DNA of 64,000 nt from Dysidea avara (lineage: Eukaryota > Porifera > Demospongiae > Dictyoceratida > Dysideidae), in assembly GCF_963678975.1 (NCBI RefSeq), contig NC_089280.1, positions 15,722,780 through 15,786,779 on the forward strand. The letters run 5' to 3'. The position numbers were made by a program, and so were the translations under genes. The notes under the pieces are model-generated. The model was not told the DNA's origin. It did not search any database and was given only the letters and a program-made list of their open reading frames with translations. The stretch's first letter is position 1. The number at the start of each line of letters is the position of its first letter. Positions 10,437-58,320 of this stretch are shown here, one piece after another.

Positions 10437-11040
10437 GGATGTAGTGTGTAGCACACAATGTGTCTAGATGTCAGAATATAATTATTACAAGTGAGATGAG
10501 TTGTTCAAATGTAACTGCATTGAATGCATTTCACTTCTAGTCTTGGGATGATTCACTAAAATAACAGGTGTACACAGTGAACATAGTGCCTGTATGCTTT
10601 AATAAACTGTTTTAATGTGCTATTTCCATACCAATTAAGTTGTGGTTTTCTTGAGGCATGCAAGTTGCATGTGTATTCTGTACTTGTGCTCTTGAAGTGT
10701 GTATTGAAAAGTAGACTCAGCATACCGTAATTTGCTTTTCTTTCGTTGTAAACTAATTTTCGTATGCAAAAAACTTGTGCGAAAAATTTTACATAGGATT
10801 GAACTACTCTAATAGAGCAGTTATTCACATAATCATACAAAAATATTTTTACATGAAAATTTTTATCATGAAAAATATTTTGCACGAAAATAAATCGAAT
10901 TACGGTAGGTTTGAAGGATTGGCAAATTCGAACCTTAGCCACACCTTATCCTGGAATTGCTCCTCATATACCACTCTTCCTATGAGAGCTTGTGTGATAA
11001 ATCTTTCACTCATTCATTAGGTCATTGGCTCTGTATGGAG
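10437..11040. repeat. second half of a mosaic duplication, copied from 23525-24000
   Basis: From GTAGCACACAATGTG onward this matches the end of an exon and the following intron of the unknown gene at 22.5-26.1 kb: shared blocks include CTTCTAGTCTTGGGATGAT, ATAGTGCCTGTATG, ATACCACTCTTCC and TTGGCTCTGTATGG. It follows directly on the SPAG16 exon copy in the same relative orientation, so about 5.3 kb separating the two sources is absent here. A MITE (10725-10905) interrupts it. Confidence 0.75.
10725..10905. mobile_element. 181-bp MITE, CCGTAATT termini, TA target duplication
   Basis: Termini TA-CCGTAATT and AATTACGG-TA form an inverted pair, and the interior is a long imperfect hairpin (CGTATGCAAAAAAC, CGAAAATAAATCG). 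The paralogous sequence at about 23835 has a single TA and no insert, giving a natural empty site. The middle carries one copy of the shared quasi-palindrome (10803-10822). A degraded relative lies at about 47190-47345. Confidence 0.8.
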
Positions 11041-12176
11041 CTGTGAAGTATGTAAGTCACTTAGTATGCATTCTGTCACTGTTGTGGTTTCCATTGATAA
11101 ATATACTTTTACATTGCCCCAGTCTATAATAATTATACCCAGTGGTATAATGGGCAATTAGGACACTAGTCCATAGTGAGCATGAAATCAATGAGGCACC
11201 TTCACAAAATCAATAATGTCATCTTTCTTAGTGAGTCAATTTAGGAATATTTACCTGAACTCTGGGTGGCAATAATACACAACTGTCAAAGGCTTTGCTG
11301 CTATTAATGATCAATACTGGCAGTCTTGGGTAGCATACCTATATAAAGGGTTAAGCATGCATACCAAATGTTACCCACATGACATGCTAACATTGGTGGT
11401 GTACATGTATAACTTCAAGCACATTAAAGGCATTAATGAACTATTCAAAATTGTCATGGTTATAACAAATTAAATCACCTAATGATCAGAAGGAATTAAA
11501 CTAACTATCTGTTTGGCTATTGATTGGACACAAGCTTCAACTACTCAGATCATCATATATCCTGTTCTCTAATTTAAACTGAGTTAATTGGAAAATGGCT
11601 TACCTGATAGTTGTACCGAGTATTCAGAGCACTTGTATGGTACTTGCAACCGTAAAGAATAGTGCATTCATGTAGTTGGTTAATCCGGTTTTGGGTGCTT
11701 AATTGTGAGCACCATATTTGACTTGCTGACTCTTGCCCTCCTAACCCACACCCATGATATTTCTTTTTTGGGGTCCAGAAGAGGTTGTACCTATATAGTG
11801 AGGACTCCTAACTTAGCATGTTTTGTTGTACATAGGGTTACCCAAAGCCTTTAGACTTTGTGTATGCATAATAGTAAAGAATGATACAATCAAGTTGAAA
11901 GTTGCAGGTTAACACAAACAACTTTGGGAACCTGTACACCTACCAAAAACAACCACCATCAGTTCATGGAGGTTGATTACTTCATATAGTTGTGGTAGAG
12001 TGAGCCACATAAACTATAATTATAAAAGTTTCATGCACAAAGTGACTTAGCATGCAGTAGTATAATTCCCTCACTTTTAGTTTTTTTAACACTACCTTTA
12101 AAGCATCGATGAAACCATTTGTCACTCCAAAATAATGTCCATTTGAAGTTTACAGAACCATGATGACATTTTTACT
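11041..12176. other. no gene seen
   Basis: AT-rich sequence with many stops in all frames. No repeat structure or splice-supported exon was recognised. Confidence 0.4.
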
Positions 12177-12902
12177 AAAACAATCATAGGCGGATCTAGG
12201 AGACACTGCTGTGGTGTGTGTGTGTGTGTGTGTGGGGGGCAGAAAGTTATGAGATAAAATCCACGAATGAAACTCTAGTACACAAGTTACATAACTTTGT
12301 TTGGTACAACTAGATGAATGAATGGCATACACTTTCTAAGACTTTAGTTGGATATCTTCTGAGAAAAACAATTAAAATAGGTTGAATTTGGGAGCATTTT
12401 TCATAGCTATTTAGCTAACAAAATGCATGCTTTGAAAACATGTAAAATTGGTTAGACAAACCTTTTTGATAGTAAAGTGTACTAAATATAAGGCAGTATT
12501 GTTATAATTTACAAATTTGTCAGTTAATGATATTAGAATAGTGACTGCTCTATTAGAGTAGAGATTTCCAACTAAATTAAATAATTAACATTCCATACAT
12601 TCATTGGTATGTACAATATTGTGCATTTTGTCAGGGTCATTTTAGTGCAAACCCCACCTCAATCAGTGGTTCCTATCAAAAGATATAAGGAAAAGAAGTG
12701 GACAGTGTGATGATTTTTGTGTACAGCATTTCAATGCTTTTTATGTATATTGCATGGCACCAAACACAATATACAAAGTGTCATAAATCTAGATAGGAAA
12801 CTAATAACGACATGAAATTTTCACCACATATCTATTTTATGAAGAACAGCATATGAAGTAAGTAAAACCTCTCAAAAGTGACCACTTCTTTGTAGACTGA
12901 CC

Positions 12903-13251
12903 CAGGGCCGCCCACAGGGGGGGGGAAACTGCGGGCCCCAGCCTGAAAGGGGCCCCAGGAGGCCCCATGAAGGGCCCCCTGAATACCTGTTTAAAAGATC
13001 GATATACTCTAATAGAGCAGTCAGATCTAAATACTCTAATAGAGCAGTCACAGTATTCTTCAGAGGAGCAGTGTAGCAAGCTTATAAATAAGGAGATATG
13101 GTTGGTGATGGGTAGTTATTGTCATTGCCAGCAGGTTGTGACCTTTTTTTTTTTTTTTTTTTTTTTTTTTTGGTCTTCACCTTACAACTTGGGTGAAGGG
13201 CCCCACTTTAACTCTTTGCCCTGGGCCCCTTAATTTCTCTGGGCGGCCCTG
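12903..13251. mobile_element. 349-bp hAT MITE, CAGGGCCGCCCA termini
   Basis: Left end CAGGGCCGCCCACAG, right end CTCTGGGCGGCCCTG, flanked by a perfect 8-bp duplication GACTGACC (12895-12902 and 13252-13259). Inside are a 29-base T run (about 13144-13172) and two tandem copies of the shared quasi-palindrome (13003-13050). A degraded copy of the same family is at about 31034-31390. Confidence 0.85.
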
Positions 13252-13449
13252 GACTGACCACTCAGAATATTACATGAATAAAGCAAGTGATGCATAAATA
13301 AAACTGTGTATTATGTAATACTAAATATATATACACAGGTACTTAATGCATTTTCAAGGATAACTAACTAGAAAAATCGGTAATATTTTATAAATGGCAA
13401 GTACTGGCATCACAAGTCGCAATTAACACGTACTTCGGAAACATGACAA

Positions 13450-14073
13450 TCAGATAACACAATGTAAGAGCAACATTATTTTTAATATAGATTTGTTTGG
13501 ACACTGCTCAGCTTTATTTGTCACATTGTAAACACTAAGGATGATAATTATTATATAACACAATGACATCACTGTACTACAAAGAGAAATTATAAATAGT
13601 TTCTGATCAAAATTACAATCACTGAAGCTGCTATAAAATGGATCAAAACAGCAGTAAATACACCAGAATATAACAACAGGTAAGTGTGAAGCCATGTAAG
13701 GTTGGTATGATATGTCAGTCTCCACTTTTGAAAAGATTATGCCGGCTCAACCTTGAACCTTATTTTGCAATTCCGCGCAAGACAACAAACTGCTCACCTT
13801 CAAACTATGCTTGCATCGATGCAGGGGGGTGCCTTGAAGCCCAGGGTGATTGTAATGCTGAATTCTGAGCAGTGTTAGATGGCGATTTACCTTTAAAAGG
13901 GCCATATTTCCATCGTAATCCAACATCAATCGTCCTCCAATCAAAAAACACATGGAAAAATCGAAATCAGCATATACGGTTTGCCCAGAACCACTTTCTT
14001 CGTCCTCATCAGCAGCAGATTCACGCGGAAACACTCGGAAACTTCGGCTATCACAGGTGCCACATTCTTCCAA
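13450..14073 (-). CDS. uncertain open frames inside the 2.4-kb element
   Basis: Two minus-strand frames, 14073-13747 (108 codons, acidic near the N end, DEDEESGSG) and 13725-13450 (91 codons, two hydrophobic stretches), lie in the extra segment of the hAT-type element. They could be a captured gene or remnant. I recognise no domain, and no hAT transposase motif (such as the C-terminal dimerisation block) is evident. Confidence 0.2.
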
Positions 14074-14597
14074 TTAGAATTACGTACGCAATTATTTGTA
14101 TGGGCTTCCTATGGAGATTTTTATTTCTCAAACTTTGATTTGCTGTATTTCAATAAATACCGCATGGATTTTAATCCAGTGAAGTGCAATACAAAGTACG
14201 AAGCATTGGCTACCATTTACTGGAACGGCAGCTTGTGAAACGTTATTGAAGGTGTATAATTTAAGTAGCAAAAATATGTGTGAAAAATTGGTAGGTTGGA
14301 AATCGCTAATTAGAGTAGTGACTGCTCTGTTAGAGTATCTCGATCTTTAGCACAAAAATTCTAACTTATTATTAGTCTCATTTTCTTCACAGTGTACAGT
14401 TTATAACTGTCAAGTGCATTTATAACTGTTGTCTTCTGTTTACCTGTTGGTTCTCTGTACTTCTGAATACAGTGTGAATGCATGATTCTTGTTTCTGGTG
14501 TACTAAATATTATAGTCCTGTAAGTTCAAGGGGGGCAAGAGAGGGGCGGGGGGCAAACCTCCCTTGGCCTTCCCTCAGATCCACCTATGAAAACAAT

Positions 14598-18088: not shown

Positions 18089-21000
18089 TTATTCCCATAT
18101 TGCTACCACTCCATCAGATGATCCAGATATCATCATGGCACTACGTTGATCAAATATCACCGTCTGTACTGCTTCATTGTGTCCCTCTAGTTGATCAGTC
18201 TGTAGATAATGTGAGGTAATAACCCAACGACTTGTAGTGTTGGTCTATACTGACCTTTTGGGAATCTATTGTATGCATCTTGATGGTACCATCATTACTT
18301 GCTAAAGCTAATAATGTTCCTGTGTTGAACAATTACAAAGAAAGTGGACGAATAAGTCAAACATAATTAAATTTTGGTTTGTTAGCTATTGAAATGTGGC
18401 CAAGTAAGAAAATTTCACTGAAATGGGAATAATATATCTACATACTGACTTCAACAAACACTTTAACAAAGTGTGCAAATCATATGAGGGAAATCAGTGG
18501 TTCGGCAAATTTAAAGTTAACGTTGACTAAGGGGTGTGAAATCTTTTTCCTGATCAAATCACAGTAACTGAGTGAACATTTATGGAATTTATGGACTCTA
18601 TATAAAATTATAGTATAGACTAATCACCAACCAATCAGATTATGTGATGCATTACACATAATTGACTTTTGTATTTGTTTGTTTCCTTACCACAGCCTCA
18701 TGGTAATGAATGTTCAAGATACCCGAAGGCTTTTATCCAGCAAATCATCCAAGATATACAATATAGACAGCGCTCCTTCAATTACAATATGCTCAAAGGC
18801 TAGTTTTGTGTGCAGTCTGTCTAGCAACTAAGATGCAGTTTCACAGAGTTATTTTCAAAGTTGTCAGCCATGCTGTTTACAATAGCGGTGCTCTTGCTCG
18901 CTTGCTGTGTTTGAACGCATGCTCTTGTGTCCATGATGATCTGTGGATAACTACAAAATGTGGAAAGGGCCTCGTGTAATAATTTGTTACAGGACTATAT
19001 GGCATCAGAAACTCTCTCCTCCTATACTGCCTGCACGTTTTGTTTGATTGGTGGAGAAAGGCACAGTTTGTATAAAAATCTGCAACTACAGTATTTGCTT
19101 TTGTTGTACCTTGTAACACCATTATTCAGTGGTACTGAGGCAACTAACATGGTTCCCATGGTACAAAGAGATACTGAGCTGATTTATTTATCTTAGTTAT
19201 TTTTTCTCTTTTCTCATATGGCATTTGTTGATGTGCCAATCATGAGGAATTATATTTACAGATGAAGATCTTCCATCAGAATATTAGATTGGCAAGATAG
19301 TCTTACAACCAACTAGGGTCAGCGTCTAGCTGATCATGACAGACTGTTTTACAACAACAATGCATTTATAAGATAGGACAAGTTGACTACAAAACAAGAC
19401 TCACTGTTAGGATCAAATGTTAATTGGTTCAGTGAATATGATCCAAACTGCATAGTAGTCATTGCTTCAGTTTGTCCCCTAGTATCCCATAGGTAGGCAT
19501 GTCCAAATGAGTCACCAGAAGCAATAGTGTCACCCTGTGTGATGTGATGACAATAGCAGCTTATAAAGGTTATCTGATAACTGGTAAATGTTGTGTTACT
19601 GAGGACAATATGTGCCAATTTCTACACTAGTTTGCACTTTGTAGATGAGTATATTGCTATAAGTTCCTCTCATTACAAAATCAAATGTTGAAGACTGTAT
19701 TTATCAAGTTAGGACTTGTAATGGACAAACATTATGAAGACTAAAAAACATATATGTACAGTAGACCCTCAGTTATCTGACCCTTCTTTATCCATAATTG
19801 GAATGACTGTTCTATTAGAGTATTTTGGCTTCTAGTGTACGTTCTATTAGAGTATTTCAATAGAACTCTATATAAATGTATGGGCTTCAGTTATTCAAAC
19901 AATTCATTTATCTGAACACTTTTACAATTGCCTGAGACACAAACCCTAGCACTCTAGTACCTTTATATTAACTGTGGCATAATTGCAGGAGTGTTCGTGG
20001 CCATAGAAAGTATGGCAGCATAAACCCTACAAGGAATCACACTATACACACACTTATTAATCAATGTGTAACTAACAGTTCTACAGTCCCACAATGACAC
20101 AGTCCTATCAGCAGAACAACTACACAACACACTGGAGTAAGGTAGGAACTGAACACTGTTCACTGAATCAGCATGTCCTCGTAGCGTCAGTACACAATGC
20201 TTGCTACATTATAATGATACAGTTACTGAGAGTAGATTCATACTGTAAACTACTAACCTAGTCACATCCCACACACGTATAGTCTGATCCATTGATGATG
20301 ATGCCAGTATGTTAGCAGTTGAGTGCCAAGAACATCCCCACACTACATTTTAATAGTGTATAATAAATACAAGAAAATACATAATGACTTTACCAGGTTG
20401 TATATGTTCTGATAATGTGAGCATACACTGGTTCTTAGTGAAGTCCCATATTTTAACGGTACCATCACCAGAACATGTGGCCAGATATAGTCCACTGTAT
20501 ACATTTCAGAGATATGATACCATAAAGTGTGACATACATATTTACCTATTATGAAAGTCTGCATCTCCTAGCCAATCCTTGTGTCCCTCTCCAGTCATCA
20601 ATAATTCACCACTACAACCCATTTATGTAAATATTTGACCATTAATTAACAAGGGAAATACCCTGGGATATTCCATAATTTCCATGTATGGTCATCACTA
20701 CATGAGACAGCAAGTGGCTTGGTAGGATGGTAACATAATCTACAAATAACAGAATTTAAATTTATTTTTAAGGTTATCCTTATACCTGCTGACACCACAC
20801 TCATGGGCCTGAAAGGAGTTAGTCATCTTAAATCCTCCAGTTCTTGTTAAATGAGCACACATTGGCAGTGCTGAATAAGTCAAATAAGGATTGGCTTGGT
20901 TATGTGGGAAAGAAAATTCCTACAAGCAGGTTAATACACCAGATAGCAATTATTGTGATGTGGCTACCTTCTTTGTTTTCCCAGCCATAGTAGGTAGAAC

Positions 21001-29388: not shown

Positions 29389-30847
29389 GGCCAGGCCAAG
29401 TTGATTCACAGTTTATCGTCAGGGATATTTGAAAAAGTCATGAGGGCAGGAGGTCATTTTTCATATTTCATAAAAATGGTTTATACATGGTACAGCATTT
29501 AAAGTTTGAAAACAGTTGCAACCTGACTTGAGCTTTCGCCTACCTCATGCACCAACAGTCCAACATCACCACACAGTTTACCAAATAAAGTACACACACT
29601 ATGTTATTTATACTATTAACAATTGAATTAGTAGTTACTCTTGTCCTATGTAGACTGAATTCAATACTGAAGATGAAAGCTCATCAAAATAGTTGAAAAT
29701 GCATGCTTCTGATTTTATACAATTCATTGAAGGTGCTACTGATACAACAGTCATCAACTGTTTGTCACACACACAAAGACCAGGGGTGGATCTGGAGGGG
29801 GCACCTTTCTTTAGGGAAGCTAGATGTCTTCAGCTTAACATGAAGCTTGCCAATCAAGGGGATCTGGGGGCATACCTCCAGTTTTTCAGGAAATTTGAAA
29901 ATTAGACCCTCTGAGATTGAATGTGTTAATTTTAGCAGACTTTTCTGCATTAGGGTGACTGCTCTATTAGGGTATCTCAATATTTAGGTATTTATACTAA
30001 GGGCCCAAGCGAACTCAAATGAATTTGAAGGTTTGTCCAAATCAGTTCGAACTTTAGCCACTAATTAGTTAAGCTATCCATCTTCCTGTGTTCCATAACG
30101 ATGCTAGACATATGGTATTTAGCATTTAATTAAGGTATGTGTTGATGGTTTAGTGGTGGTCACAGGCCATGCCTCTGTGAGGTTTTAAGGTATCTATGTG
30201 GTGCCAGTCACTTCTCTCAACTATAAATGTATTTAAAACCTGGTAACCACAAGTAGTTTCACTTGTGGTATTCAATTTCAAGTTTTCTCTGTAAAATTGT
30301 TGAGTCAGTACAAAACTTTTGAGACATGCATTTAACATTTAATATGCTGTGATTTATAATTTGTAAACAGGAACTAGCTCCATTTAAAAGTTTGAAAGAT
30401 TCGTGAACTTTAGTTGATAAATGTTCGAACCCTGACAATCCAAGTTCGTTTGGGCCCTAATTTATACTAAATAATTATACAGTTGACAGTCTGGGGCAAT
30501 GCCTCCTTCCTGCAGGAATTTTTGATAATAGACCCTCCAAAATTTAATCTGACTGTGATTCCAGCAGTGCAGTTTTTGCTGACTGTTTATATAAGGGTGA
30601 CTGTTCTATTAGAGTATATTGATCTTGATGCATGTTCAGTGATAGCTGGAGATAATATAGAACCCTCCATAATCTCTTTGACAGGGGTTACAGCCCTTCT
30701 TCTCTGTGCCCCTGACAAAGACATTACAATAGTTCACCATATCTACAAAAACGTATTCGGGAATCATGTCAGTGAGAATGAATTATGATTTTTTTGCTCA
30801 ATTCCTGTGGGTGGTGACGATAAACTGTGAATCAACTTGGCCTGGCC
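29389..30847. mobile_element. 1.46-kb PIF/Harbinger-like TIR element with TTA duplication
   Basis: Left GGCCAGGCCAAGTTGATTCA and its inverse at the right, with about 32 bp identical, flanked by TTA on both sides (29386-29388 and 30848-30850). GGCC-type termini with a TWA duplication fit PIF/Harbinger. No transposase is visible. The interior contains a nested hAT MITE (29999-30460) and, on either side of it, two diverged direct repeats (about 29880-29990 and 30515-30640), each with a copy of the shared quasi-palindrome. Confidence 0.75.
29999..30460. mobile_element. 462-bp hAT-like MITE nested in the Harbinger-like element
   Basis: Inverted ends AGGGCCCAAGCGAACT and AGTTCGTTTGGGCCCT lie between direct copies of TTTATACT (extended TTTATACTAA) at 29991 and 30461. 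Uninterrupted host sequence on both sides belongs to the outer element. Confidence 0.75.
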
Positions 30848-32522
30848 TTAGTTTCATTGGTACCAACACTGACTGTCTCATTAGAGTTACAGTATTGAAT
30901 AGAGTATTTCAATCTTATCACAGTTAGGTTTAATCTAAGTACTGTTTGGTTAAACGATATTGGGGCTGGAGTGAAATGGAGACCACATGTGGCAGCTGTA
31001 TATTGTCTGGCTAGACTGTGGTGATAAATTGGTCAGGGGCGGCGGAGAGGGGGGTCAAAAGGGACTGTAGCCCCTGTGAAAAAAATATGGGGGGGGGCTT
31101 AGCCCCCTAAAATTATCTGTAGCTGTAATGGAGAGCCTGTTCAATAGCATTAATAATTCGAGATACTCTAATAGAGCAGTCACAGTATTCTTAATTCTTA
31201 GAGGAGCAGTGTAGCAAGTTACGTATGTAGTTCTAAATTAGGAAGATATAGTCTATAGTTGGTGGAGGGAAACTATTGCCAGCAGGTAGTGACTTTTTTC
31301 TTTTTTTGGTCTTCAACTTACAGCTAGGCCATGCATCACCAATCTAGACCCCCGCCCCCTTTAAGTAAAGGTGTCTCCTCCACCCTTGAATTTGGTCAGA
31401 CAATTGCAGTGGCTGTGCATATTATTGACAGTTCAGTTTACTACTTTACTATGCATGTGTAGTATACCCATTGGCTCTCTGAATGCAGTGTAAGTGTGCA
31501 TGTGATTTGATTTGATTTATTGTTTTACTCCATGCAATCGGCTAGAGTCGTTCTTCCTTGCAGGAGTGACAACATACAGTAACACTAAAAATACACAGTA
31601 CAAATCTTAGCTAAACACACAATATACAAGCAAGAACAACTAACATATAATACAAAACCAAAACTCAATTACAAAACAGACAACAGATACAAACTAAATA
31701 TTACAAATTATTAAGTAGATGTGCATGATAATTGTGGTGAAATTGCTGGTAGTGGAGGTCTTTGATGGCAGGTTGGAAGTCAGATGGTATTATTCTACCA
31801 GTGAGTAGCAAAATTTCTGAGTAAATCCAAGGCGCAATCTCTGGGAATTAGCAAATAATCATTTGTTCATATTGGGAATGGCAGCGACCAAACTGAATCA
31901 GAAAAGGAATACATTTATTTGACTTGGTGGGATTGGTGAAACATTAGACAAGAAGCCTGAAATTGAATGAGTATGTACCTTTGAGGCATCTTGCCATCTC
32001 TTGGGCAGTAAATTTGCTGAAATCAAAATAAGAACTCTGACATAGAGTTTTTGACTACTTTTAGTGTGTTGATACTTACAATCAGTAAAAAAATGTGAAA
32101 GTGTGATCAAGTTGAACCTACCAGCAGAGAATAAAAGGAAGCTAAAGAGCCAAACTATAGTTCATTTGCTAAGCTAAAACAATTATGCAATTTCCCTTGT
32201 ATATATCAAACAAGGATTCCTACAGTATAGCTGTAGAGTAGATGCCAAAGCACTGAGTACTGTAAAGTGATCAAACAGCTGTTCTATCAGAGTATATGAC
32301 TTCTTTTAGAGTATGTCATAGCCAACTTTCTTCCATTGCTCATGGGAATTTTGCCAGCAGAGTTGCCATGCAGTAGTGTTTCTGTGTGTAGACTACATGA
32401 CCTGTATTAAGGCAGTAAAAGTGGGCATCCACTGTACATCCACTGTACATGTACATTAATGATATTTATGTTGTATGCATTAGGGAATAGCTCATAGTGT
32501 TATTTTGTACACAGGAGAATTT
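30848..32522. other. no gene seen; degraded repeats
   Basis: Contains a decayed copy (about 31034-31390) of the 12903-13251 hAT MITE, sharing AGATACTCTAATAGAGCAGT, GAGGAGCAGTGTAGCAAG and CAGCAGGTAGTGAC. At 31508-31700 there is TGATTTGATTTGATTTATTG followed by retrotransposon-3'-end-like sequence, similar to 40305-40440. Possible 5'UTR exons of the ankyrin gene were not identified. Confidence 0.45.
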
Positions 32523-35500: not shown

Positions 35501-38500
35501 TAAGAATCCTGGTACTGTAAATGCATAATTTTTTATATAGCTACATAAATTGTTGTACTGTTTTCAAATCGTTTCAAATACAGTACTACTGTAGTATCTG
35601 ACTGTTCTACCTCAGTCTTGCATACAGCACTTCTGGAAGGACGACAAAGTTATGTGGTGGTTGGCCCAGGCCCACCTGCCACTGCAGGTTATTATTATAC
35701 AAGCTGATATTGATTTATTCTGTCACTCAGTGAGACAAAGTACCATTCAGGGAATAGGGAGCTGAGAAGGGAGTAGAGAAGCTTGCAAGAAAATGTATTA
35801 CTAATGAACACAGCTTATATAATAAATGGGAGAATTTTTGTTTAGTGAAGTACTGTTTCTTTCTGTATCTATATTTTGTAGAAGATTACACTGTATACTA
35901 TAGATGCTGCTGGAAGCTGGTGCTGCTGTGAATGCTACTACTTCAAAAGGAAACACTGTCCTCCATTTGTTGTGCAAATTGGTTCCTTCATTAATTACCA
36001 ATAACTGCATTGAGCTACTAGTGAGTTTTTAATCAGTATGAAGGTCAACAATCATGTGTACCTTGTTGTATAGGTAAACCATGGAGCACTGCTAAATGTT
36101 AGGAATAAGGAGGTACATGTACATATTTTGTATCATAGTAGTGGACCCTTCTTAATTTATCAACCAAAAAGGTTTATATCATAGTTAAATCACTGTCAGC
36201 ACATGGGTGTGTGTCTTAAATAAAATAAATAAATAAATAAGAAGCTTATACAGCATAAGGTGATGCCAAGTGTTGTATTAGTCTCGAGAGTGCTGTTTTT
36301 GTACACATGAGCATAGGTGGTGGTTTAAGTGTTATATTGTACTTCTTCCTGGTCATCTTGCTTAGAGTGTTTGTTTTGAGTACCTGAACTGCTTCAATTT
36401 TCGGTGATCAGACTATCAGTGACTGTTTGAATAGAGTTGTTTTTTGTAACATTCCTTACATAACTGTACTGTATCTTCCACATAGCTATATTGTATTTGC
36501 CCAAGTGTACTGTATCAACCTGTAATATATTAGTTAAAGCACTACCACGAGTGCATTATGGGAAAAATAGCATGAGGGTGTGGGAGATACTAATACAACA
36601 TGAGGCAAAGCTGAGTGCTGTGTTCGGCTCGAGACTATGCCATATGAGGAGACTATGGACAGTCACTAGCCTCCTTCTGTAGCTAATAAAAATACTGCAG
36701 CATACCCCTATCATGTGACTTCTTATCCAGGTGAGCTTCCCAAACCTAAATCTCTTTAAAATAAATATTTCAAGAGACTAACATGTTAACTAGTTAGCTA
36801 GTGTATATACCTTATGTACACTGGCTAATCCATCAAACTCATAGGATTTTAATGTAGTGGAGTGGTTATTTTAAAACTTCTTGACTGCTCTATTAAAGTA
36901 TTTTAATGAACTGTATTAGAGTGTTTTAATCATTTTATTGGAAGAATACAATATGTTACCAAGACACAGTAACGTAAAATACATCCTTGTACTGACCTGT
37001 TTACCTTTTTCATTGGTCGTTCTCATCCTGTTCCATTTCCCTAGAACTCTACTTACCTTTATTACCTTGGCATTCTGTCTGCATTATGCATATATAGTCA
37101 GCAAAGAGTTATATAAAAGAAACCCTTTTGTACTGTGGACTTTGCGGACATACCCATTTCACAATATCTAAAGTACATGGTGGATTACTTTATAGATGCA
37201 ATGAGCTAATGGTGTTTGTGTAGTAGCAAGTTCATATATAATAACCTCACAGTTGTATGATTAACTTATTATTCCATAGGGATTCATGCCTGTTCACTGT
37301 ACTGCTGTAGCTGGAGATTGTGACAGATTGTTGCTTTTGTTAAGGCTTGATGCCCAAACTGGTGATAAAATGAGGGAGGCACTCAAAGAAGAGATGGTTG
37401 AGGTATGCATCAAACTCTATTCATTTTGTGCTATAACATTCCATACATTAGCCTCGTCCTCCAAGCTTGTTGTATTTATCCATTGAGAACAATCACTTGA
37501 AACTTGCTGAAATGTGAGTTTGTACTTTAGTTACTGATTATGTGTAGTGAATACTATTCTGAAAGGCTGGAAAAAGAACAATTAGAATTTAAGGAAGGTG
37601 AAGTTGATAGACTGGCAGCATTGATATTGACACTTAAGTTACCTCAGTAAGTATGTTCAGTGCAGAAATCCATCTTAACCACCTTATTGGTCACTTTGAC
37701 TTGTGGGTAGAGGCCAAATGAACTATAAGATATGATAGTACCCTCAGGAGCACCACAACACAATATAGGATCTTCAGGTTATGTATGTAAGCATAGGCGG
37801 ATCTGAGAGGGGGCCAAGGGGGCAAAGTCCCCCACCCCTGGTCCCTTCTCTTGCCCCCCTTGGACCTACAGGACTATATCGACACCAGAAACTGGAATTA
37901 TGCATTCACACTGTATTCAGAAGTACAGAAAGCCAATGGGAAAATAGAAGACAACAGTAATTAATGCACTTTATAGTTACGTATAAACTGTACACTGTGA
38001 AGAAAGTAAGATAAATAATTTTGTATTTTTGTGCCAAGATTGAGATACTCTAATAGAACAGCCGCATTCTAATGTTATTAATTTATAAAACTAAAACAAT
38101 AATTTGATTTACCATCAAACAGGTTTATCTCAGATAGGCTGACTAATTTATGCTTTTCAAAGCATACACTTTGTTAGCTAATTGCTATCAAAAATGCTCC
38201 CAAATTCAAACTTATAGGAAGTAAAATTTTCTCAGAAGATATCCAACTAGGGTCTTAGAAAGTGTATGTTTTCTATTTATCCAGCTATACCAATCAAAGT
38301 TTGCTAATGAATAATTGTATTAAGTGGTATGTGCAATACTAGAGTTCCATTCTTCTCCTATTAGTGGAATTAGACTATGTCACGCATAGTATGCTTTGAA
38401 GTTTAGTCATTAATGAGGTATTTAAAATCCAATAGATACCCACGGGTAGGTATCTAAACTGGTTAGATACCCGTGACAAAACTTCTTGTCACATGTGTCA

Positions 38501-40965
38501 CGTGCTTTGCTGGATTCCAGTCACAAAACCATCGCTAGAGTGTAAATAAAATGTGCAATAACCTATATTAAACATTTAAAACTGCTTCCGCCCCCCCCCC
38601 CCCCCCCCTCACCAGTGTCTCCTAGATCCACCTATGTATGTAAACTTTTGTTCCTGTCAACTGTTTCATGTGATGACCATTCTATTGGAGCATTTGGATG
38701 TTCTGTTAAAAATTTTCAATTTTAGTGTAAATTTGTATGTAGCTGTTTACCACTTTTGAATCTTCCCTTGTCATCTTCTCCACCTAATTTATGACATATC
38801 ACCTTTCTGATGGCCTCATAATCTAAGGGACCAACTTTGTATCTGCCGTGCAATTATATGCATTACTATGTGTTGTATAGGACCAAGGTTGTGTCAACAT
38901 ACCAGTTGTTACTCAGACATGGAGCTAGTTTTAATGACAGTGCATGCAGGTAATTATTGATCATAAATATTGACATTTCAATATCTGATATTTAGCCCAT
39001 TGTGCTTGGCAGCAATGCAACCACTGTACCCTGAATTTGTCCAGTTACTGCTTGATCAAGGGGCAGATCCCAACATGGTAGATAGTGAATTAGGAAGTCC
39101 ACTCTTCTGTGCCTGTAAAGCTAACAACCCTCATGCTGCTCTCATGTTACTAAAAGCAGGTGTGGTGTAAGCTTCATCATTCTACAATAGTTATTAGCTC
39201 TGTGTGTGTGTGTGTGTGTGTACTGATTGCTTTGTAGGGGCAAACTACACTACAGAGAATAGTCAAGGTATGTAATCTTTGTAATGTAAGATTGTTGAGT
39301 ATTTATATTATAGACTTTACATACATTTCCCACTAAAAGTATCGATAGTCTTATAACTCCTCATGGCACCTTGAAAGTATTTGTTAGCATCCTTATATGT
39401 ATACGTCTTTGAATTAACTCTACATATTTGTGAAAAATTTTAATGAAACTTGTGTTTTTATTTAACGGAATTTTGTACTAACACCACCTACGGATGCCTT
39501 CAGACAAGTGCAACTCAATAATGGCTATGCAGACTTGATTTCTTCACTGTTATATATTGTAAGCATGACGGACTTACCTTTGGTCCTGTGTCCCATTTCT
39601 TTTTACTTATATTATAACAAGCAGAAGGAAAAATTGGGAATTTAGGGATCAAAATAAGTAGGAAATAGCTAAAAAGTGATGAAACAAGGAAAGTTGCCTA
39701 TACCTGCAGATATACTACTGGACATTAAATCCCTAAACTTCAGTCTATAACCATGACTGAATTAGGGATAAAATGTCCACTAGCATATCTGCTGGTATAG
39801 GAAACTTTCCTTGCTTCACCACTGTTTAGCTATTCCCTTGTTTCACTACTTTTTTGATCCCTAATCCAACTAATTTTTCCTTCTACTTGTTTGTTTACTT
39901 TTCTATAATGTAATCACGACAAATGAACCAGTACATACCACATCAAAAGAAAGAATGGTGCCAGGAATGCCATAAAAGTAATTTCATGTCAGAACATGCA
40001 CCCAAACAATCACAACATGACCTTCAGCTTTCTGGCTGCTGTTGATCTTATTTCCATTGAGATTGGTTGTTTAGGCATGTTTGCCAAGTGACGAAGAAAA
40101 CTACAAGATCCCTGTTTGGGATTTTTAATTCTAGAGCCTCTCTGGAGGGGATCTATCGGATTACCTAAACTGGACTTTTCTGCTTGCTAATTATTATTTA
40201 TTTAATAGTGTAAGTCTTGCTAGGGGTTACTAACCACCCTGTGGGTATCAGTGTGTGTGTGTGTGCGTGTGTGGCATAGGGGAGGTTATGAGGCTAGAGC
40301 CCCTCCACTTGATTGAATGATTGATTGACTTATTATTTAAAGTCGCAGTACTCAAAGCCATTCTTCCATACAGGAGCACACCTAATAACACACACATAAC
40401 AACAATATAATATACATAAAGCTACACAGAACAAGTATTTTAGGGCTTAGCCCCTCCACTTTACAAGATAAAGATACTCTAATAGAGCAGTTAGGTACTC
40501 TAGTAAAGCATTCAAATACATTTTCAGCCAAATTGTTTCCAACTTCAAGCTAATTTCTCAAAATTTCCTGTGGGGGAATACCCCCAAACCCCCTTAGGTA
40601 CCGCACATACTTCATATTCTGAGTGTCCTTTGCACCCTACAAATTGTCACCTAATTGTCACCCTTCTTAGCCCCCTCACTTAAAATGTTGTTACACCCCC
40701 TGTATACAGATACACATTATTTACCAGTGGAAACTATGCCACATGTACAGGTCTGACTCCATTCGATGTCATACCTGAACATCATGTATGGATCAGGAGT
40801 GGATTATTTGATGAGGAAATGCAATCAGTTTTATCAGGTTCTGAAATTTTATAACAATAGTAATCATACACACTTGTTATACTTCTAGTACATAAATGGA
40901 GGAAAACAAAACACCTGGTGTCAGAAATAGAAAGGAGGTTACACACTACACGAGGACAGTATTAG
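32523..40965 (+). CDS. ankyrin-repeat protein, 19 coding exons, 555 residues
   Basis: Exons (1668 nt, in frame to TAG at 40965): 32523-32556, 32617-32699, 32758-32807, 32868-32964, 33304-33399, 34531-34641, 34699-34798, 34867-34987, 35036-35099, 35152-35241, 35904-36020, 36074-36112, 37280-37402, 37531-37646, 38881-38949, 38996-39159, 39238-39267, 40751-40837, 40889-40965. Ankyrin repeats are clear: STGNTALHIASRCGHLEVAE, GCTPLFLAAESIHKDMCQLL, GNTVFHIASKLGNLEAVKLC, GATPLHLTRSLDIIKMLLEA, GNTVLHLLCKL, SPLCLAAMQ with LLLDQGADPNMVDSELGSPL, and a final LTPFDVIPEHHVWIRSG. A non-ankyrin N-terminal region of about 75 residues starts at the ATG in the first exon; the acceptor just before it implies a noncoding upstream exon. 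No other catalytic or membrane domain is seen. Role unknown; likely a protein-binding scaffold. Confidence 0.85.
33828..34027. mobile_element. 200-bp Tigger/pogo-like MITE in an ankyrin-gene intron
   Basis: TA-CAGTAGACCCTCAGTTACT at the left and inverse CAGTGGACCCCTGTCCC at the right with TA outside. Two copies of the shared quasi-palindrome inside. Same family as 19759-19950 and 47484-47693. Confidence 0.75.
37792..38636. mobile_element. 845-bp hAT-type element, CATAGGYGGATCT termini
   Basis: Left CATAGGCGGATCTGAGAGG, right inverse CATAGGTGGATCTAGGAGAC, with near-perfect 8-bp flanks TATGTAAG / TATGTAAA. It lies in an ankyrin-gene intron. One shared quasi-palindrome is near its centre (38042-38062). 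A C run of about 18 is at 38590-38608. Shorter relative of 12185-14589. Confidence 0.75.
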
Positions 40966-45210: not shown

Positions 45211-45249
45211 TAACTGTCTAACAACGATTTAAAAGTATTAATTGAGGTA

Positions 45250-45475
45250 AGGTAAATGCGGGTATTTCCGGACAGCGCACAATTCCGGACACTTTGGCAC
45301 CTTTACCAAGCTAGCTCAGGAACGAAACAACGGATTGCCTTGAAATTTCTGGTGTGAATAGCTATTCTTATAGGGATTATAAAAATCGAAAAGTGTGTTC
45401 TAGTTGATCCATTTTTGGGTGCTATACATAAAGTGTCCGGAATTGTGCGCTGTCCGGAAATACCCGCATTTACCT
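45250..45475. mobile_element. 226-bp MITE, long inverted repeats, TA target
   Basis: About 48-bp inverted arms beginning AGGTAAATGCGGGTATTTCC, with TCCGGACAGCGCACAATTCC inside. Flanking TA at 45248 and 45476. Removing it and one TA rejoins the host reading frame (VVNS-T-SINTFK). Mariner-type target. Confidence 0.85.
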
Positions 45476-46048
45476 TACTATTTACTACGTAAGTAGGTAA
45501 GCTATTCCAATCATTGGTGATCCTATTAATAAAGTAATTTGATCTACACAACAATCTTGACCGTTCCTTAAACAACTTGAACTGATGCCCCCTGGTGGTA
45601 GTATTTGAGAAAGTATATAAATTAGCAAAATCTGTGCCGAAGTAGTTATTAAGAATTAGTATAAAGGAAAATTAGGTCACCTCTCAGACGTCTGTGTTGG
45701 AGTGATGGTAATGATAATAATATCAACCTCTCAGAATAGGATTTATCCTGTAGTTGTGGGAGAAGACAGGTAGCTCTTCGTTGCACCTTCTCTATCTTTC
45801 TCTGATCAAGAGTGTAATGAGGTCCCCAAATAGCATTGTTATATTCTAAGATGGGATGAACTAACGTACTGAACAATTGTGTTAGCATGATAGGGTCAAG
45901 ATAATCAAAAGATTTTTTAATCAATCCAAGTACTCGGTTAGCTTTGGTGGTGACTTGAGCAGTGTGGTCATGAAATTTTAATTGGCAGTCAAAAAGAATA
46001 CCAAGGTCACTGTGTGATGTATCGAGTTCAATTAGTGTTCCATTGAGA

Positions 46049-46435
46049 TATAGTATGTTCATGTTGAGCTGAATCCTGAATAACAGCTAAAAATTAAAAG
46101 TAGACTTTTTCTCAACAGAGGTAACATTTCAGCCAACCAGATGATTTTTGGTAACAGTAAAGGTGTCAACAACAGACACATACGGTTTGGCTACATTACA
46201 AGTTCAGGAAAGGGCTGTAATGGACACTGTACTTATATGGCTTCCCCATAGCAAATGTATTGTGAAAATTTTGATTGGCCGTAAATATTAAGTCAAACAT
46301 TTGAACAAAAAGATTTTGAAATATTTTTAGCGGATCAAGCAGTACTACAAATGAGCCAATTTCAAGATCATGTGTAATTGCATCCATGAGTTATTAAATG
46401 TTTTTGAGGATTCAGCTCAACGTGAACATACTATA
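46049..46435. mobile_element. 387-bp MITE, TATAGTATGTTCA termini
   Basis: Inverted ends TATAGTATGTTCAYGTTGAG continuing to CTGAATCCT (about 29 bp, one mismatch) split the reverse-transcriptase frame between PTI and YLNGT. Removal of 387 bp keeps the frame. The target duplication is not clear. Confidence 0.75.
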
Positions 46436-46865
46436 GTAGGGCCATGGTGGTGAGCTGGGCCAAAGTGACGATGCTTGCATTTGGAAACATTAAATTTCAA
46501 TTGCCACTGTTGTGACCATCTGTGGAGTATGTCCAAGTCATTCTGAAACATGATGTAGTCATCCTTATTTCTAATGACACGAAAAATTTTCATGTCATCA
46601 GCTAACATTAGGACAGGGCTTGACACAATTGATGGTATCTCATTCACAAGCATTGTAAATAGTAGAGGCCCCAGCACAGAGCCTTGGGGCATACCACTAG
46701 TAACTGGTATGGAACAAGACTGATGACCATTTAGTACAACTCGTTGTTTTCTATTAGACAAAAAGCTTTCAATCCACATGTATAATGTACACTACAGCGT
46801 GTATACTATTTGTTGTTTTAGGTTGAGCTTACTACAAAGAGATAGTCAGCTACCTGTGCTTTTCA

Positions 46866-49800
46866 ATGGAAGGAAGTGGTCCAGGTATACCGACTGTATA
46901 GCTCAGCTATAATTGTGCTATAGCGTACATGTTGTGTGTATCCACGTGTGTTAGACATGTACTACATTATTCTTTTGAGTAGCGCTCAAAGAATACACTA
47001 TTATACTTACCAAAATTATGACATCTTTATATATAATAGGCAAATGATGTAACTTTATTGTCATTTACAGTGATGTTTCAGTTTCAAATGATCTTGTACT
47101 CTTTTAACTGGTTGCTCAGAGTATTTCATTTCATAAATATTTGTTGTGACTGGTTTATCATACTATCATACGTACTGTATACTATAATTCACTTTTTTTT
47201 ATTGTTTTTCGTATGCAAAAATTGGACAATTTTTTTTGCACAAGAACCTTTGGAAAGATTGAGATACTCTAATAGAGCAGTCATTCACGGAAATCATACG
47301 AAAATATTTTACATGAAAATTTTAATCTTGAGAATTGTTTGCATGATGAATAATGGAAGTAAGAGTCATGAAGGCTTGGACTTTCCTGCTCAAAAATGTC
47401 ACCCAGAAACCTGCCTCACTTTTCCTTCACAAACAACTAGCTTGGCAGTACACTGGTTATGTGGCATAAATAAAACCCAGGTATAGTAGACCCTCAGTTA
47501 TCCAACCTTCATTTAGGAAATGACTGTTCAGTATTTTAAGTGCAGGTGTATGTTCTATTAGAGTGTTTCAGCAGAGCTTTGTATATAAATGTATGGGATT
47601 CAGTTATCTGAACAATCCACTTATCTAAACACTTTTTATCATTGTCTGAAAACAAAGAGGTTCAGATAACCAAGGGTTCACTGTATGCCTCCTGAAAGGA
47701 CTCCAAAAAACTCTTCTTTGTTTAGCATTGTTTCAACTTGAGACGTATATACCCTCAGATGTGCCTTGCAGTACCCTACAGTACATGCGTCATAAACTTA
47801 CTGATGTCCTCCCATTTCTTTCCTAACTATACCACATTAGATGTCGATTCATGATAACTGAACATGTGTGTGTGTGTGTGTACACATATTTTTGTAGTGT
47901 GTGTGTGTGTGTGTGTGGGGGGGGGGGGGAGGGGGGACGTAGCCAAGTGGTTAGGGCATTGGGCTGGTAATCGAAAGGTTCCAGGTTCAATTCTCAGTTG
48001 AGCCACCTTGGTGTTGTTGTTGTTTCCTTGAGCAAGAAACTTTACTCAGATTGCTTCAGTCCACCCAGCTGTTAAAATGGGGACCTGGTGGCCTGGTGCC
48101 AACTGTGGAAGCAGCCCACCCAGCTGTAACAAAAATGGGTACCTGGGAAGCAAATGCTCAATTGTCCATGTCTCAAATAGCAATTGAAGGTACAGGTTGG
48201 ACTTTGGGTGCCCACACCCTCACCTGTGAGACATGGTACAGCCTCATGCAGGTTACCAGTCCTGCTCCAGGAAGGCATTCCTGCACTGACCCATAGCACT
48301 CAAGTAGTGCCCCAATGCTGGCCACTGGGGAATGTGACCACATAGCGGCAGCTGAAGGCTTTTGCTTTTTTGCTGTGTGTGAGTATGTGTGTGCATAAAC
48401 ATGCTTATGTACACTGTGTACGTATGTAAGTTGCAAAAGTTTGTCTGTGGACACCCAAACAGCACCTCCCCGTTCACTTGATTGTTCAATTTTTAGGTCA
48501 ATTACTGGACCATGATAGTCCTGTACTAGATATCATTATTTGGTGCACAATTAACATCTTTATTTGGGGTAAGTTTTATATCCCTTTTATACAATGTTAA
48601 TACTCTTGAAACATCAACAGGTATTTTAATACTACTCCATTACACTGCTCGGTGTCAGAAGTTAGTACCACGTGATGTAGTTGTTGAGGATGATGGTACC
48701 ACTGTAGATACCAAGGATGACATTGGTGAGATCATACTAAATTTTGAGGTGATTATTTGTTTCTTGTTTAGATGAATGTGATGAGGAAATGGTGCAATGG
48801 AAATCAAGCATTAGTGCACTTGATGTACCACCAGATCCATGGCTAATGACGGATTATCGTTTGCAGTACAAAAATGCCTGTAAACTACCGACAATTTTGG
48901 AACTGCCAATGTTCGAGCGATTAGTGGAATTACATGATGCTAAGAATTATCAATATGGCCAATTAATTACACTTGACGACCACACAACAAATGATGATAG
49001 TATTTCTAGTGATGATGATTATTTCACTGGTAAGACTGTATAGCACTTCTGTTATCTATGCTGTATGCAGGCTTCAACTATAGAGTGTACTTTAGTGTAT
49101 GAATATATTCATGAAAGGCTTCATTGGCCAAAACAGTAACCTATACAGTAGCATACATGACAAATAATAACTTTTAATACTAACCATCTAAAAAACAATA
49201 AACAATAGCTTTCATGAATTGAACTGTATATAATGTGGTACTCACTGAGTCATAACCATGCATACTACCTTATATACAGTAGACTGTATACTGCTATTGT
49301 AATTGTAAATTCTGTATACAGCTTGTGACTGCACTGATGAAGACAATGAGCTAGAGGATGGTGATGTAGTAGAAGATGATTCTACCAAACCTGAAGACAT
49401 CACTGCAGATTCAGCAATAGAGGTAGTGTAAAGATGGTACACAGTCATGAATGAATTGTAATGCAGTGTGATGACAATCCTACACTAACGAATATGTAAA
49501 ACTCAATTTTATGATTCACTATTGCAGTATAGCTTGTAGGGAAGCTTGAAAAGTGAGCAGTATTTCAAGAAGCTAAATTCCTCCATTAGTAATTTGCTAT
49601 TTTTAAAATCTTTTCATCTTTTGCAAATTTGCTAACATAGCTATCCCCTGCCAAACCTGACAGATATACACATGATATACTAGATCATAATTATTACAGG
49701 GTATTAAAGGCTAGAACTTTGTACAAATACATTTGTCTGGTACACAGGTGGATTTGACAGCTAGCAGCAACATAGCATCAAATCATGGATTACGTTTTGT

Positions 49801-51599: not shown

Positions 51600-51650
51600 T
51601 GTGACTGTTCTATCAGAGTAGTTGACTGCTCTATTAGAGTATCTTGACTA
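51600..51650. repeat. two tandem copies of the shared quasi-palindrome
   Basis: GTGACTGTTCTATCAGAGTA directly followed by GTTGACTGCTCTATTAGAGT. No terminal inverted repeats of a surrounding MITE were found. Confidence 0.7.
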
Positions 51651-51834
51651 ATAAAAGTTGGGGGCATGCTTTCCCTTTATTTTCACCACCCATACCTGGA
51701 AATTATGCTACATTGAAACAATGACATAAGTAAATACTTAACTTCATACTCAAGGAAATAACAACAACTGGGTATCACTGAGTATTGAACCTGAAAATTT
51801 GGAATTATCAGGCCAGTGCTGTACCACTGGGATG

Positions 51835-52693
<859 letters not shown>

Positions 52694-52696
52694 AGG

Positions 52697-54200
52697 CTAG
52701 TTGTAATTGTAATTGTAATTAATTACTAATCATTAGCAATTTTCAAGTAATTGTAATTGTAATTAGCTGTTCAGTCAATAATCATTATGTAATTAAATGT
52801 AAGGAATCAAAGTTATGGTATATAAAAGTACTACTCCATAACTTGACTATACTATGTACACAATCCCATGTGTATGACATGTGGCCCATGCAGCTGCAGT
52901 AAATTATTGAAATTATAGGCATATATTTGTTGACTACATAGTTTAACATTTTATGTACAGTATGGGATACCCATGGGGTACATAATGCTCGATAGTAGAG
53001 AAAGAATTTAAACGTATCTAGATGACACAGAGTTTACAAAGGATGAAAACCCTTTAAAATTTTGGAAAATAAAGGTAAATAAATATCCCATTTCAGGGGC
53101 GGATCTAGGATTTATAAAAGGGGGGGGCTAAGTCAAGGTACTAATCTCTTGGGTAGAGGTGTGCAAAGCATGCTAGAACTAGGGGGGTCTGGGGGCATGC
53201 CTCCCCAGGAAATTTTGAAAAATTGATGCTAAAATACTGCAATTTGGAGACATTTCCACATAAAATCCCTAATATTTTCTGCCTGTAGATATTTTATATA
53301 CTGCCTTTAGATTATAGGTATGGCTCTCTGAAGCATTTTGCTAATGGAAAAGTTTGGGTAGGTACAGACAACCAAGAATAGGTGCATGTTAGAATAATAA
53401 TGTTGAAAGTGGAAAATTTTGAAATTTGAACAATACAAGATTGAATTAGAGAGCATTTTCAATGGTAATTGTGTACCTGAATTAAGTATTGCCATACATA
53501 TTAACTACACAAGTAGATGAATGAAGCCCTTTAAACAGACCAATGCACTTCATTGTATGTATAGGTGCAGGCAGATTTGGAAAAATTCCATAACAGAACC
53601 AACTACATGTTTCCAGTGAATGTTCTATTAGAGTAGTTAGCTGACTGCTCTATTAGAGTATCTCGATCTTGTACACCTCCAATGCTGATCTAGGTCCTTG
53701 TTGCATAAACTTTAGCATAAATCCACTGATAATACCTTGGAAAGATGTTTATAAGGTGGTTTTATGAGTATTTGTATTATTAGTGATCATATAATTATGC
53801 TAAGACAAAATTTCATTATAATACTCAGCATATTGATCAAGTAAAGTCTAAATATGAAGGGGGGGGGGGGGGGGCTTCAGCCCCCAAAGCGCCCCCCCCC
53901 CCCTAGATCCGCCCCTGCATTTTAAGTACAATAGAAAAGAATAGCTGAGAGTTCCAGCAACATTTGCACCACAGTGGCAATGTTCTCAGACCAAATAGAT
54001 GTAGACTATATAACCAAAAAAGTTTGAACAGTTAATATACCTTAATATAAGATTAATGCTGGAGAATTGTAAGTTATTCTTGTGCCACAATGTACAGTAT
54101 ATAGTAATTGAAAAGTAATTGTAATTATTAATCATTATTCTACATACTGAAGTAATTGTAATTGTAATTATTAGATTGGCTTCAAAATGTAATTGTAATT
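52697..54200. repeat. GTAATT-rich repeat, split by the 53094-53917 element
   Basis: TTGTAATTGTAATTGTAATT blocks at 52700-52800 and again at 54100-54200 resemble one repeat interrupted in the middle. Clear termini were not found. Confidence 0.4.
53094..53917. mobile_element. 824-bp TIR element, CAGGGGCGGATCTAGG termini
   Basis: Perfect 16-bp inverted ends CAGGGGCGGATCTAGG, with CATTT duplicated on both sides (53089-53093 and 53918-53922). G runs lie next to both ends. Two tandem copies of the shared quasi-palindrome at 53622-53672. No open frame. Confidence 0.85.
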
Positions 54201-56012: not shown

Positions 56013-56102
56013 CCACTGTGTCATATTATGTGTCTCACTGTGTCATAATATTGTATGTCTCACTGTGTCATTTTGTATCTCCCACTGTGTCATATTGTAT
56101 AG
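56013..56102. repeat. minisatellite, CACTGTGTCATATTGTAT unit
   Basis: Four drifting copies of a unit of about 20-29 bp containing CACTGTGTCATA. It lies in an open frame (55934-56329) of doubtful meaning. Confidence 0.7.
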
Positions 56103-57093: not shown

Positions 57094-57362
57094 TATACTG
57101 TAAAACAATCATTGTACAAACTGTTTGCTCATGGCTAAAATGACAGCTAAGAAGTATGTGCAATATGTTTCTGTAAAATTAATTATTGTGTACAGCCTAC
57201 TTTGTGTCTGGTAACTTTTCAGGTGTGATATGTGTAGAGCAACCCTCTATGAGCACAATGATCTAATTCATGGAAATTTTGGCACCACAATGACCCAATC
57301 AACCTGGTGTAACAAATTTTGTATTGCAAAATGCAATAAAAGACATATCTCATGACACATAA

Positions 57363-57441
57363 TAGATACCTCAGATTTTGTTGGAAAAGTAGTGCATGGC
57401 AAATAGATACCTCAGATTTTGTTGGAAAAGTAGTGCATGGC
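57363..57441. repeat. two tandem copies of a 40-bp unit
   Basis: TAGATACCTCAGATTTTGTT followed by GGAAAAGTAGTGCATGGCAA occurs twice in a row without change. Confidence 0.9.
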
Positions 57442-57689
57442 AATTTAAATGAGCTATAGAAGAAGGAAATTGGAGAAAATTTTAGTGCATCGATTTTTTT
57501 AAATTCCACGTAGGGCTACTACAGTAACTGAGTGTCATATGTTTGTACAGGTATGTGTGAAGGTCATCCTAGTTGATTACAGTGTTTATAGGGATTAGTG
57601 TACTGCAAGGATTCCATGTATATATGTATTCCTATTCATAGTGTGGGTGGCTACTGAAAGTTTTATGGTGTGTACTCCTGTTTCTACAG

Positions 57690-57793
57690 TACCTACACGA
57701 TGTGATGGAGAAGGCTACACTGCAGGAGAAAACTGTGGTCTCCCCTGGAACTTACATCAGTGATCAAGCTTATCCTTTTTATGAACGAGATAA
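57690..57793 (+). CDS. isolated exon of an unrecognised gene
   Basis: After acceptor TTTCTACAG the block reads YLHDVMEKATLQEKTVVSPG then TYISDQAYPFYERDK and ends AA|GTGAGC (104 nt). Clean splice sites and amino-acid-like composition support a real exon. No partner exons or family were found; neighbours may lie among the repeats or be lost. Confidence 0.45.
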
Positions 57794-57862
57794 GTGAGCC
57801 TACATGTGTGTATAGGTAGGCTACAGTACATTACACATGCACACACACATATGCATAATAAA

Positions 57863-58320
57863 TAGGGACCTGCCGATTATGCTGATAATTTTACCTATTA
57901 TGCTATGCTGCACTGCTCAAAAAATTCACCTATTATGCTTAAATTAATGCTCAATATTTACCTATTATGCTCGATTATGCTCAATGTTCATGCCTTAGTT
58001 CATATGCTTTGCTACTAGTTTAACACTATATAGAAAGAAAAAAATGAGTGGCTGGAACACAAATAATAAATTCTTGCTGCATGCCTGCATGTAAGAGACA
58101 AGATCGATATACTCTAATAGAACAGTCAGTTTGATGATTGTTCTATTAGAGTTACTGACTGCTCTATTAGAGTATATCCATCTTATTTTGCAATTGTCAT
58201 TTTCCCAGCAAGAGTTTACACTATCGTACAAATATTTAACCTATTATGCTGGCATTATGCTCAATGCTTTTAGGTACCTATTATGCTCAAAATTATGCTA
58301 ACATAATCGGCAGGTCCCTA
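57863..58320. mobile_element. 458-bp hAT MITE, TAGGGACCTGCCGATTATG termini
   Basis: Inverted ends TAGGGACCTGCCGATTATG on both sides, perfect 8-bp duplication ATAATAAA (57855-57862 and 58321-58328). It inserted into the 55-57-bp tandem array that continues on its right. The interior carries many CCTATTATGCT pieces and three copies of the shared quasi-palindrome. Confidence 0.9.
58101..58192. repeat. triple copy of the shared quasi-palindrome
   Basis: Reference site for the motif GACTGCTCTATTAGAGTATC (inverse GATACTCTAATAGAGCAGTC), whose centre CTCTAATAGAG is a perfect inverted repeat around one base. Copies here at about 58107, 58138 and 58163. Other copies (approximate starts): 10805, 12542, 13008, 13031, 14311, 19803, 19841, 25507, 27106, 27143, 29957, 30599, 31163, 32282, 33867, 33906, 36889, 38045, 40476, 47266, 47553, 51603, 51624, 53626, 53643. 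Confidence 0.85.

Follow-up and report, generated by a model that had tools for sequence, protein, structure and literature searches.

A quasi-palindromic 20-mer motif, each copy of which is here called a unit, is found at 31 distinct sites in 64,000 nucleotides of the genome of the sponge Dysidea avara (assembly GCF_963678975.1, contig NC_089280.1, positions 15,722,780 to 15,786,779 of the forward strand; the whole of this stretch is referred to as the window). The units are often paired in a cassette of about 50 bp, and this cassette is common to at least 4 host lineages of DNA transposon that have no detectable similarity outside the motif. Our leading reading, which we hold tentatively and would not quite call probable, is that the cassette is a binding platform for a host DNA-binding protein, carried and kept by the mobile copies of these elements.

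The motif and its cassette

An earlier note on this DNA had pointed to a motif at nearly 30 sites and proposed a scan with the 20-mer allowing 3 mismatches. Run on the window, that scan gives 19 matches against 0 in 100 shuffles, and the core CTCTAATAGAG with up to 1 mismatch gives 37 matches against 1.17 expected, many of the 37 being the two strand readings of a single site. A weight matrix built from the 19 matches finds 32 at a score of 10 or more, one of them the opposite-strand reading of a site already counted, while 20 simulated windows have 0.7 per window, so the claim of nearly 30 sites was right. As a control, 13-mers were listed over the whole window, counting places at least 500 bp apart and with one tandem array and one CA repeat left out. 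All 18 non-simple 13-mers at 4 or more places fall in the motif, and hence no other non-simple word of that length is as widely dispersed here.

The best-kept copies are two-unit cassettes of about 50 bp, having a first unit u1 (GACTGTTCTATTAGAGTAGT), a second unit u2 (GACTGCTCTATTAGAGTATC) 21–27 bp on, and then a tail YRATCTT. A strong second unit on the same strand within 40 bp accompanies 8 of the 22 primary units (p < 0.01 against random positions), with spacings of 21, 21, 21, 25, and 27 bp, and of 32 bp in 3 Tigger-like copies; a weak one (p 0.01–0.05) is found at 4 further primary units. Local copies are therefore frequent, as had been noted, but not constant. The other impression, that units often sit in the element centre, holds exactly in the 10.7 kb element only; by their coordinates the units of the other bounded elements are at roughly 0.2–0.9 of the length. 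Position 6 is T in the first unit and C in the second in the best copies (51.6, 53.6, and 58.1 kb), and a u1-type with a u2-type unit at 21-bp spacing is found in the 51.6, the 58.1, and, less well preserved, the 40.5 kb copies. Position 6 thus distinguishes u1 from u2, and the pair seems to have been inherited as one cassette.

The limits of the conserved block were read from 10 sites aligned on the core, which come from different or differently dated hosts, although not all are independent, several being hATs. They agree at T(−1), across GACTGYTCTATTAGAGTAT, and at T(+20); agreement over RATCTT is weaker, at 6–9 of 10 sites, and extends to about +27, and flank columns outside that are at 3–7 of 10. 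The block is thus sharply edged, starting at T(−1) and stopping near +27. Within it, the asymmetric GACTG is conserved with G in 26, A in 24, C in 23, T in 29, and G in 29 of 30 units, and the loop positions are kept in 29, 29, and 28 of 30. Since loop and GACTG are kept as well as the palindromic arms, the pattern fits recognition of sequence rather than of shape, and favours a protein.

The competing thought is that the GACTG strand, once transcribed, folds into a short hairpin (UGCUCU-AUU-AGAGUA) that an RNA-binding protein or the small-RNA machinery recognises, which we judge most improbable. On that strand and with G-U pairs allowed, positions 6 (variable, with 16 C and 14 T) and 16 can pair in all 30 units, and positions 5 and 17 in 29 of them, whereas strict DNA pairing is satisfied in 17 and 1 of 30, respectively, and the inverted triple at 58.1 kb folds far better than shuffles (z −9.2 and −11.8). 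The other 10 of the 12 folds have z from −2.7 to +0.8, however, and the loop and GACTG are kept beyond what pairing needs. The hairpin idea thus has weak, strand-asymmetric support, from a suggestive G-U pairing on one strand and one outstanding case among 12 folds. Rfam families at gathering score have 0 matches in the window, by which a known structured RNA family is rejected. The inverted unit copies at 58095–58190 give a strong hairpin on both strands and are a possible source of small RNA.

A minimal parasitic sequence had also been suggested. As a self-inserting unit, this finds no support, there being no target-site duplication flanking the unit at 19 sites, where the best of 3,564 combinations of boundary and length reached z = 3.2.

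The host elements

A blind search of the window for terminal repeats flanked by target duplications gives 22 pairs, compared with 3, 1, and 1 in 3 simulated windows. All 5 of its clean hAT-type elements carry the motif (those starting at 12185, 12903, 37792, 53094, and 57863; Table 1), and two further 8-bp matches, at 27211–27584 and 61369–61462, are poor, without a unit, and at chance level. Of the 30 units, 10 lie in the outer elements, which account for 7.1% of the window (binomial p 2.5e-5); counted by place, 6 of 21 do so (p 0.0027). When hosts bounded by eye or by alignment are included, 15 of the 21 motif places are within elements spanning 7.0 kb, a set that, having been assembled by searching around motifs, is no test of enrichment. 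The 6 places without a boundable host are at 2.8, 25.5, 32.3, 36.9, 40.5, and 51.6 kb.

The ends and duplications listed in the earlier note at 10.7, 12.2, 12.9, 37.8, 53.1, and 57.9 kb are borne out by terminal repeats and duplications, and so is the Tigger-like family at 19.8, 27.1, 33.8, and 47.5 kb, by alignment of its copies with each other. The 12.2 and 14.3 kb sites belong to one hAT (hAT-A, to 14589), and the 12.9 kb element is nested inside it. An 8-bp duplication with short terminal inverted repeats is found for the hAT hosts, with 8 of 8 bases in the hAT-A long form, hAT-B, hAT-C, and the 57.9 kb element, and 7 of 8 in the hAT-A short form and hAT-D; the ends of hAT-C match in the first 6 bases only, and those of hAT-D in 12 of 16 (counted by eye). 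The 53.1 kb host departs from this pattern with its 5-bp CATTT. Groups of hATs with 5-bp duplications exist. The 4 Tigger-like copies align over the unit pair, and the blind scan gave no clean TA-bounded ends for them; judged by their end sequences, these miniature inverted-repeat transposable elements (MITEs) would be Tigger.

A Harbinger-like host at 29.4 kb does not hold up. Both motifs within the Harbinger-like element 29389–30847 (TTA duplication) are in the nested hAT-C, so that Harbinger is rejected as a separate host, and another Harbinger-like element, 43788–45210, contains 0 of 30 units. The former is a three-level nest, in which the Harbinger-like element (TTA) holds hAT-C (ACAAAGAC), which in turn holds a AGGGCCCAA element with the 9-bp duplication ATTTATACT. 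The latter has matching ends, a TAA duplication, and an open frame of 237 aa (44258–44971) without a Pfam match.

Relatedness of the hosts

Hosts were compared with their cassettes and nested inserts masked, and similarity was accepted at z > 3.5, which is reached by 10 of 91 pairs and not by the other 81; each pair of these short sequences was set against 30 simple shuffles, and a very old link could escape detection. After masking, hAT-A, -B, -C, and -D and the 53.1, 40.5, and 51.6 kb copies form one linked cluster, the two CCGTAATT copies are linked to each other, and the same is true of the tested pair of Tigger copies. No link joins the 57.9 kb hAT, the CCGTAATT MITE, Tigger, or the 36.9 kb site to the hAT cluster or to one another.

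These links bear on the proposal that all hosts had one ancestor, their ends having since been exchanged and other similarity lost. The 7 hAT-type hosts or remnants of the cluster are joined by links from weak (z 4.2–5.3) to strong (z up to 16.9, between hAT-B and hAT-D), and within it descent suffices as an explanation. Whole-host common descent fails to explain all of the sharing, because the hAT cluster, the 57.9 kb hAT, the CCGTAATT MITE, and Tigger are mutually dissimilar once masked, and their ends and target duplications differ as well (8 bp versus TA). We regard a single ancestor as very doubtful. The earlier note's statement that shared ancestry cannot explain the motif was nevertheless too strong, since most hAT hosts keep residual similarity outside the motif and its Harbinger host was an artefact of nesting.

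Cassettes as possible joints

The two forms of hAT-A differ in a segment bounded by cassettes. The left side of the short form matches the long form as far as the first core and including it (76% of 196 columns), the right side matches it from the second core (85% of 227 columns), and just inside the cassettes, similarity is no higher than in shuffles (scores 18 and 25). The segment of ~1.76 kb from one core to the other, nested hAT-B included, is therefore present or absent exactly between two direct cassettes. The simplest reading of the alignments would be deletion by recombination between cassettes, with insertion as a possible alternative origin of the long form. Transposase was looked for between the hAT-A cassettes by scanning 6 of the 12 listed open pieces against Pfam, with none above the curated cut-off. 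In hAT-B, there are 2 units 27 bp apart where its relative hAT-D has one, and therefore unit number changes in place. Of the suggestion that the motif is an insertion or conversion hotspot, what stands is its behaviour as a joint for rearrangement within a single hAT family.

Such joints are what one would look for if the motif were a passive or selfish passenger, a short repeat that passes from element to element through template switching, gene conversion, or gap repair, profits from being abundant, and brings the element no benefit, its sites then being joints of deletion or exchange. The hAT-A forms speak for this, as do the two direct units of hAT-C and the change of unit number between hAT-B and hAT-D. 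Copying by recombination should leave ragged ends, however, and 10 of 10 aligned sites have the same left edge and a right edge that is much alike; the lack of a target duplication flanking the unit also counts against it. We consider the passenger somewhat unlikely, and weight the site for a host protein above it. Our best reading is that the cassette would be such a binding site and act as a recombination joint as well.

Divergence of cores and flanks

Cores from different lineages are on average 93.7% identical, whereas flanks of relatives within families are 60–90% identical. Over 6 comparisons of relatives, the cores have 9 mismatches in 126 positions, against 21.9 (standard deviation 4.9) in random ungapped flank windows, and 0.29% of 20,000 flank draws (a fraction of 0.0029) are as low. 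Because dead copies should escape selection, we take the difference to reflect either constraint on the mobile masters or homogenisation.

A proposed platform for a host protein

The reading that we lean to is of a ~50-bp cis-acting cassette serving as a putative platform on which a host protein binds DNA in a sequence-specific manner; this protein may itself derive from a transposase. Several DNA transposon families, unrelated to one another, would carry the cassette and keep it in their mobile master copies because it may aid expression of the element or its access to open germline chromatin, and recombination or gap repair would have passed it from one family to another. The sequences themselves show the motif, its edges, the layout of the cassette, its occurrence in at least 4 lineages with no detectable similarity outside it, the slower divergence of cores than of flanks, and, in one hAT family, the segment present or absent exactly between two cassettes. 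That a protein binds, that the element profits, and that families have exchanged the cassette is what we infer.

Several observations pull the other way. The spacing within the cassette varies over the values given above, and the number of units differs between the sisters hAT-B and hAT-D, both of which are minisatellite-like. By eye, there is no core-promoter element at a fixed downstream place across the hosts. In 1 of the 6 comparisons, the hAT-A right side, the core is above the flank mean (3 versus 2.46 mismatches), and units were picked out for their resemblance to the motif, a bias towards well-kept cores. A promoter reading with a fixed TATA box is rejected, since by eye no hosts other than the Tigger copies have a TATA-like stretch.

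If the cassette is a protein-binding site, then unrelated transposons would have converged on, or traded, one host signal, and what lets a MITE family expand becomes testable by a 50-bp deletion. If it is a passenger, it would clearly exemplify a minimal sequence that passes from one transposon family to another and influences the positions of internal deletions.

Known systems and occurrence elsewhere

One precedent is the m1m2 motif pair (PMC9757741). CERP2 and CELE2, two related MITEs of Caenorhabditis, carry it in their inverted repeats; it is bound by HIM-17, and has promoter activity shown with transgenes. Both systems have short paired motifs in MITEs (tandem in CELE2), with spacing that varies between species there, and it is the pair that matters, not the rest of the element; here, 8 of 22 primary units are paired with a strong second one. 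The Dysidea case differs in that one quasi-palindromic unit is repeated, is mostly internal, and has hosts of several unrelated lineages. Bacterial repetitive extragenic palindromic (REP) sequences are 20–40 bp palindromes (PMC3733652). They resemble the present units in being short, abundant, imperfectly palindromic, and dispersed, and differ in that the units here are mostly inside DNA transposons and in an animal genome. Internal minisatellites and nested repeats occur in non-autonomous transposons, and are like the present case in tandem units and in change of unit number inside a MITE (hAT-B versus hAT-D); the difference is that here, the same unit recurs across unrelated element families.

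In literature searches, judged by titles and the openings of abstracts, no paper was recognised as describing the motif, and a search by its letters turned up three papers on other subjects. In viral contigs, an 18-mer and the unit-plus-tail pattern have 0 matches each and the tandem-pair pattern has 4, none sharing the GACTG flank, which look like chance. The 53.6 kb cassette has no match to phages and plasmids. Prokaryote contigs amounting to 257 billion bases contain 4 matches to the 18-mer (L001–L004), where we estimate ~15 by chance. Three (L002–L004) are judged bacterial from base composition and context only, and L001 alone has a eukaryote-like context. It is contig JACOMT010000094.1, assigned to a Rhodobacteraceae metagenome-assembled genome that is named in a study of Lamellodysidea sponges (PMC7313196). 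The unit there is in a tail of lower G+C (0.32–0.44 versus 0.50–0.65 in the preceding 400 bp) with short open frames. The motif is all that this contig has in common with the window, at best 25 of 26 bases; next to the unit is a 12-nt inverted repeat that is without a duplication by eye and may be chance. At 4200–5370, the contig appears to be chimeric with eukaryotic DNA, and the tail is probably sponge DNA; a chance match landing in the very small eukaryotic fraction of prokaryote contigs is unlikely. A bolder version of events, which we find quite unlikely, is that the 50-bp cassette travels between DNA transposon superfamilies as a unit, as a regulatory parasite or a shared licence, possibly by site-specific recombination or conversion at the quasi-palindromic cores, and is conserved between distant sponges.

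Coordinates of the elements

Table 1. Elements and cassettes carrying the motif, by position in the window
Feature	Position	Strand	Duplication, ends, and units
CCGTAATT MITE	10725..10905	.	TA duplication; one unit 10803–10822 (minus), central
Diverged relative of CCGTAATT MITE	~47190–47375		unit 47263–47282
hAT-A long form	12185..14589	+	CATAGGCGGATCT ends; duplication AAAACAAT; units 12543, 14320, direct repeats
hAT-B	12903..13251	−	nested in hAT-A; CAGGGCCGCCCA ends; duplication GACTGACC; units 13003, 13030, 27 bp apart
hAT-A short form	37792..38636	−	duplication TATGTAAG/TATGTAAA (7/8); single unit 38044–38063
hAT-C	29781..30714	+	duplication ACAAAGAC; units 29957, 30599, direct repeats; element ~29999–30459 nested between units
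hAT-D	31034..31388	−	duplication AAATTGGT/AATTTGGT (7/8); one unit 31162–31181; relative of hAT-B
CAGGGGCGGATCTAGG element	53094..53917	+	16/16 terminal bases match; 5-bp duplication CATTT; units 53618 (u1), 53643 (u2); tail TCGATCTT
TAGGGACCTGCC hAT	57863..58320	+	duplication ATAATAAA; units 58108 (minus), 58136 (u1, plus), 58157 (u2, plus)
Tigger-like MITE	19758..19945	+	units 19805, 19837, 32 bp apart; ends approximate
Tigger-like relatives	~33825–34010, 47482–47660, 27080–27230 (reverse)		by alignment
Two-unit cassette	51603..51651	+	u1 and u2 at 21-bp spacing; no host element bounded
Two-unit cassette	40465..40513	−	40473 u2, 40494 u1; remnant; residual similarity to 53.1 kb element and hAT-C
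Unit with weaker second unit 23 bp downstream	36883..36930	+	no host bounded; no residual similarity to other hosts

Other features of the window

The window also has a perfect 49-bp inverted repeat at 45247–45478, a reverse transcriptase fragment (Pfam RVT_1) at 46417–46791, a very long CA repeat of ~850 bp at 51837–52692, and a tandem duplication of ~526 bp with 97% identity at 58647–59701.

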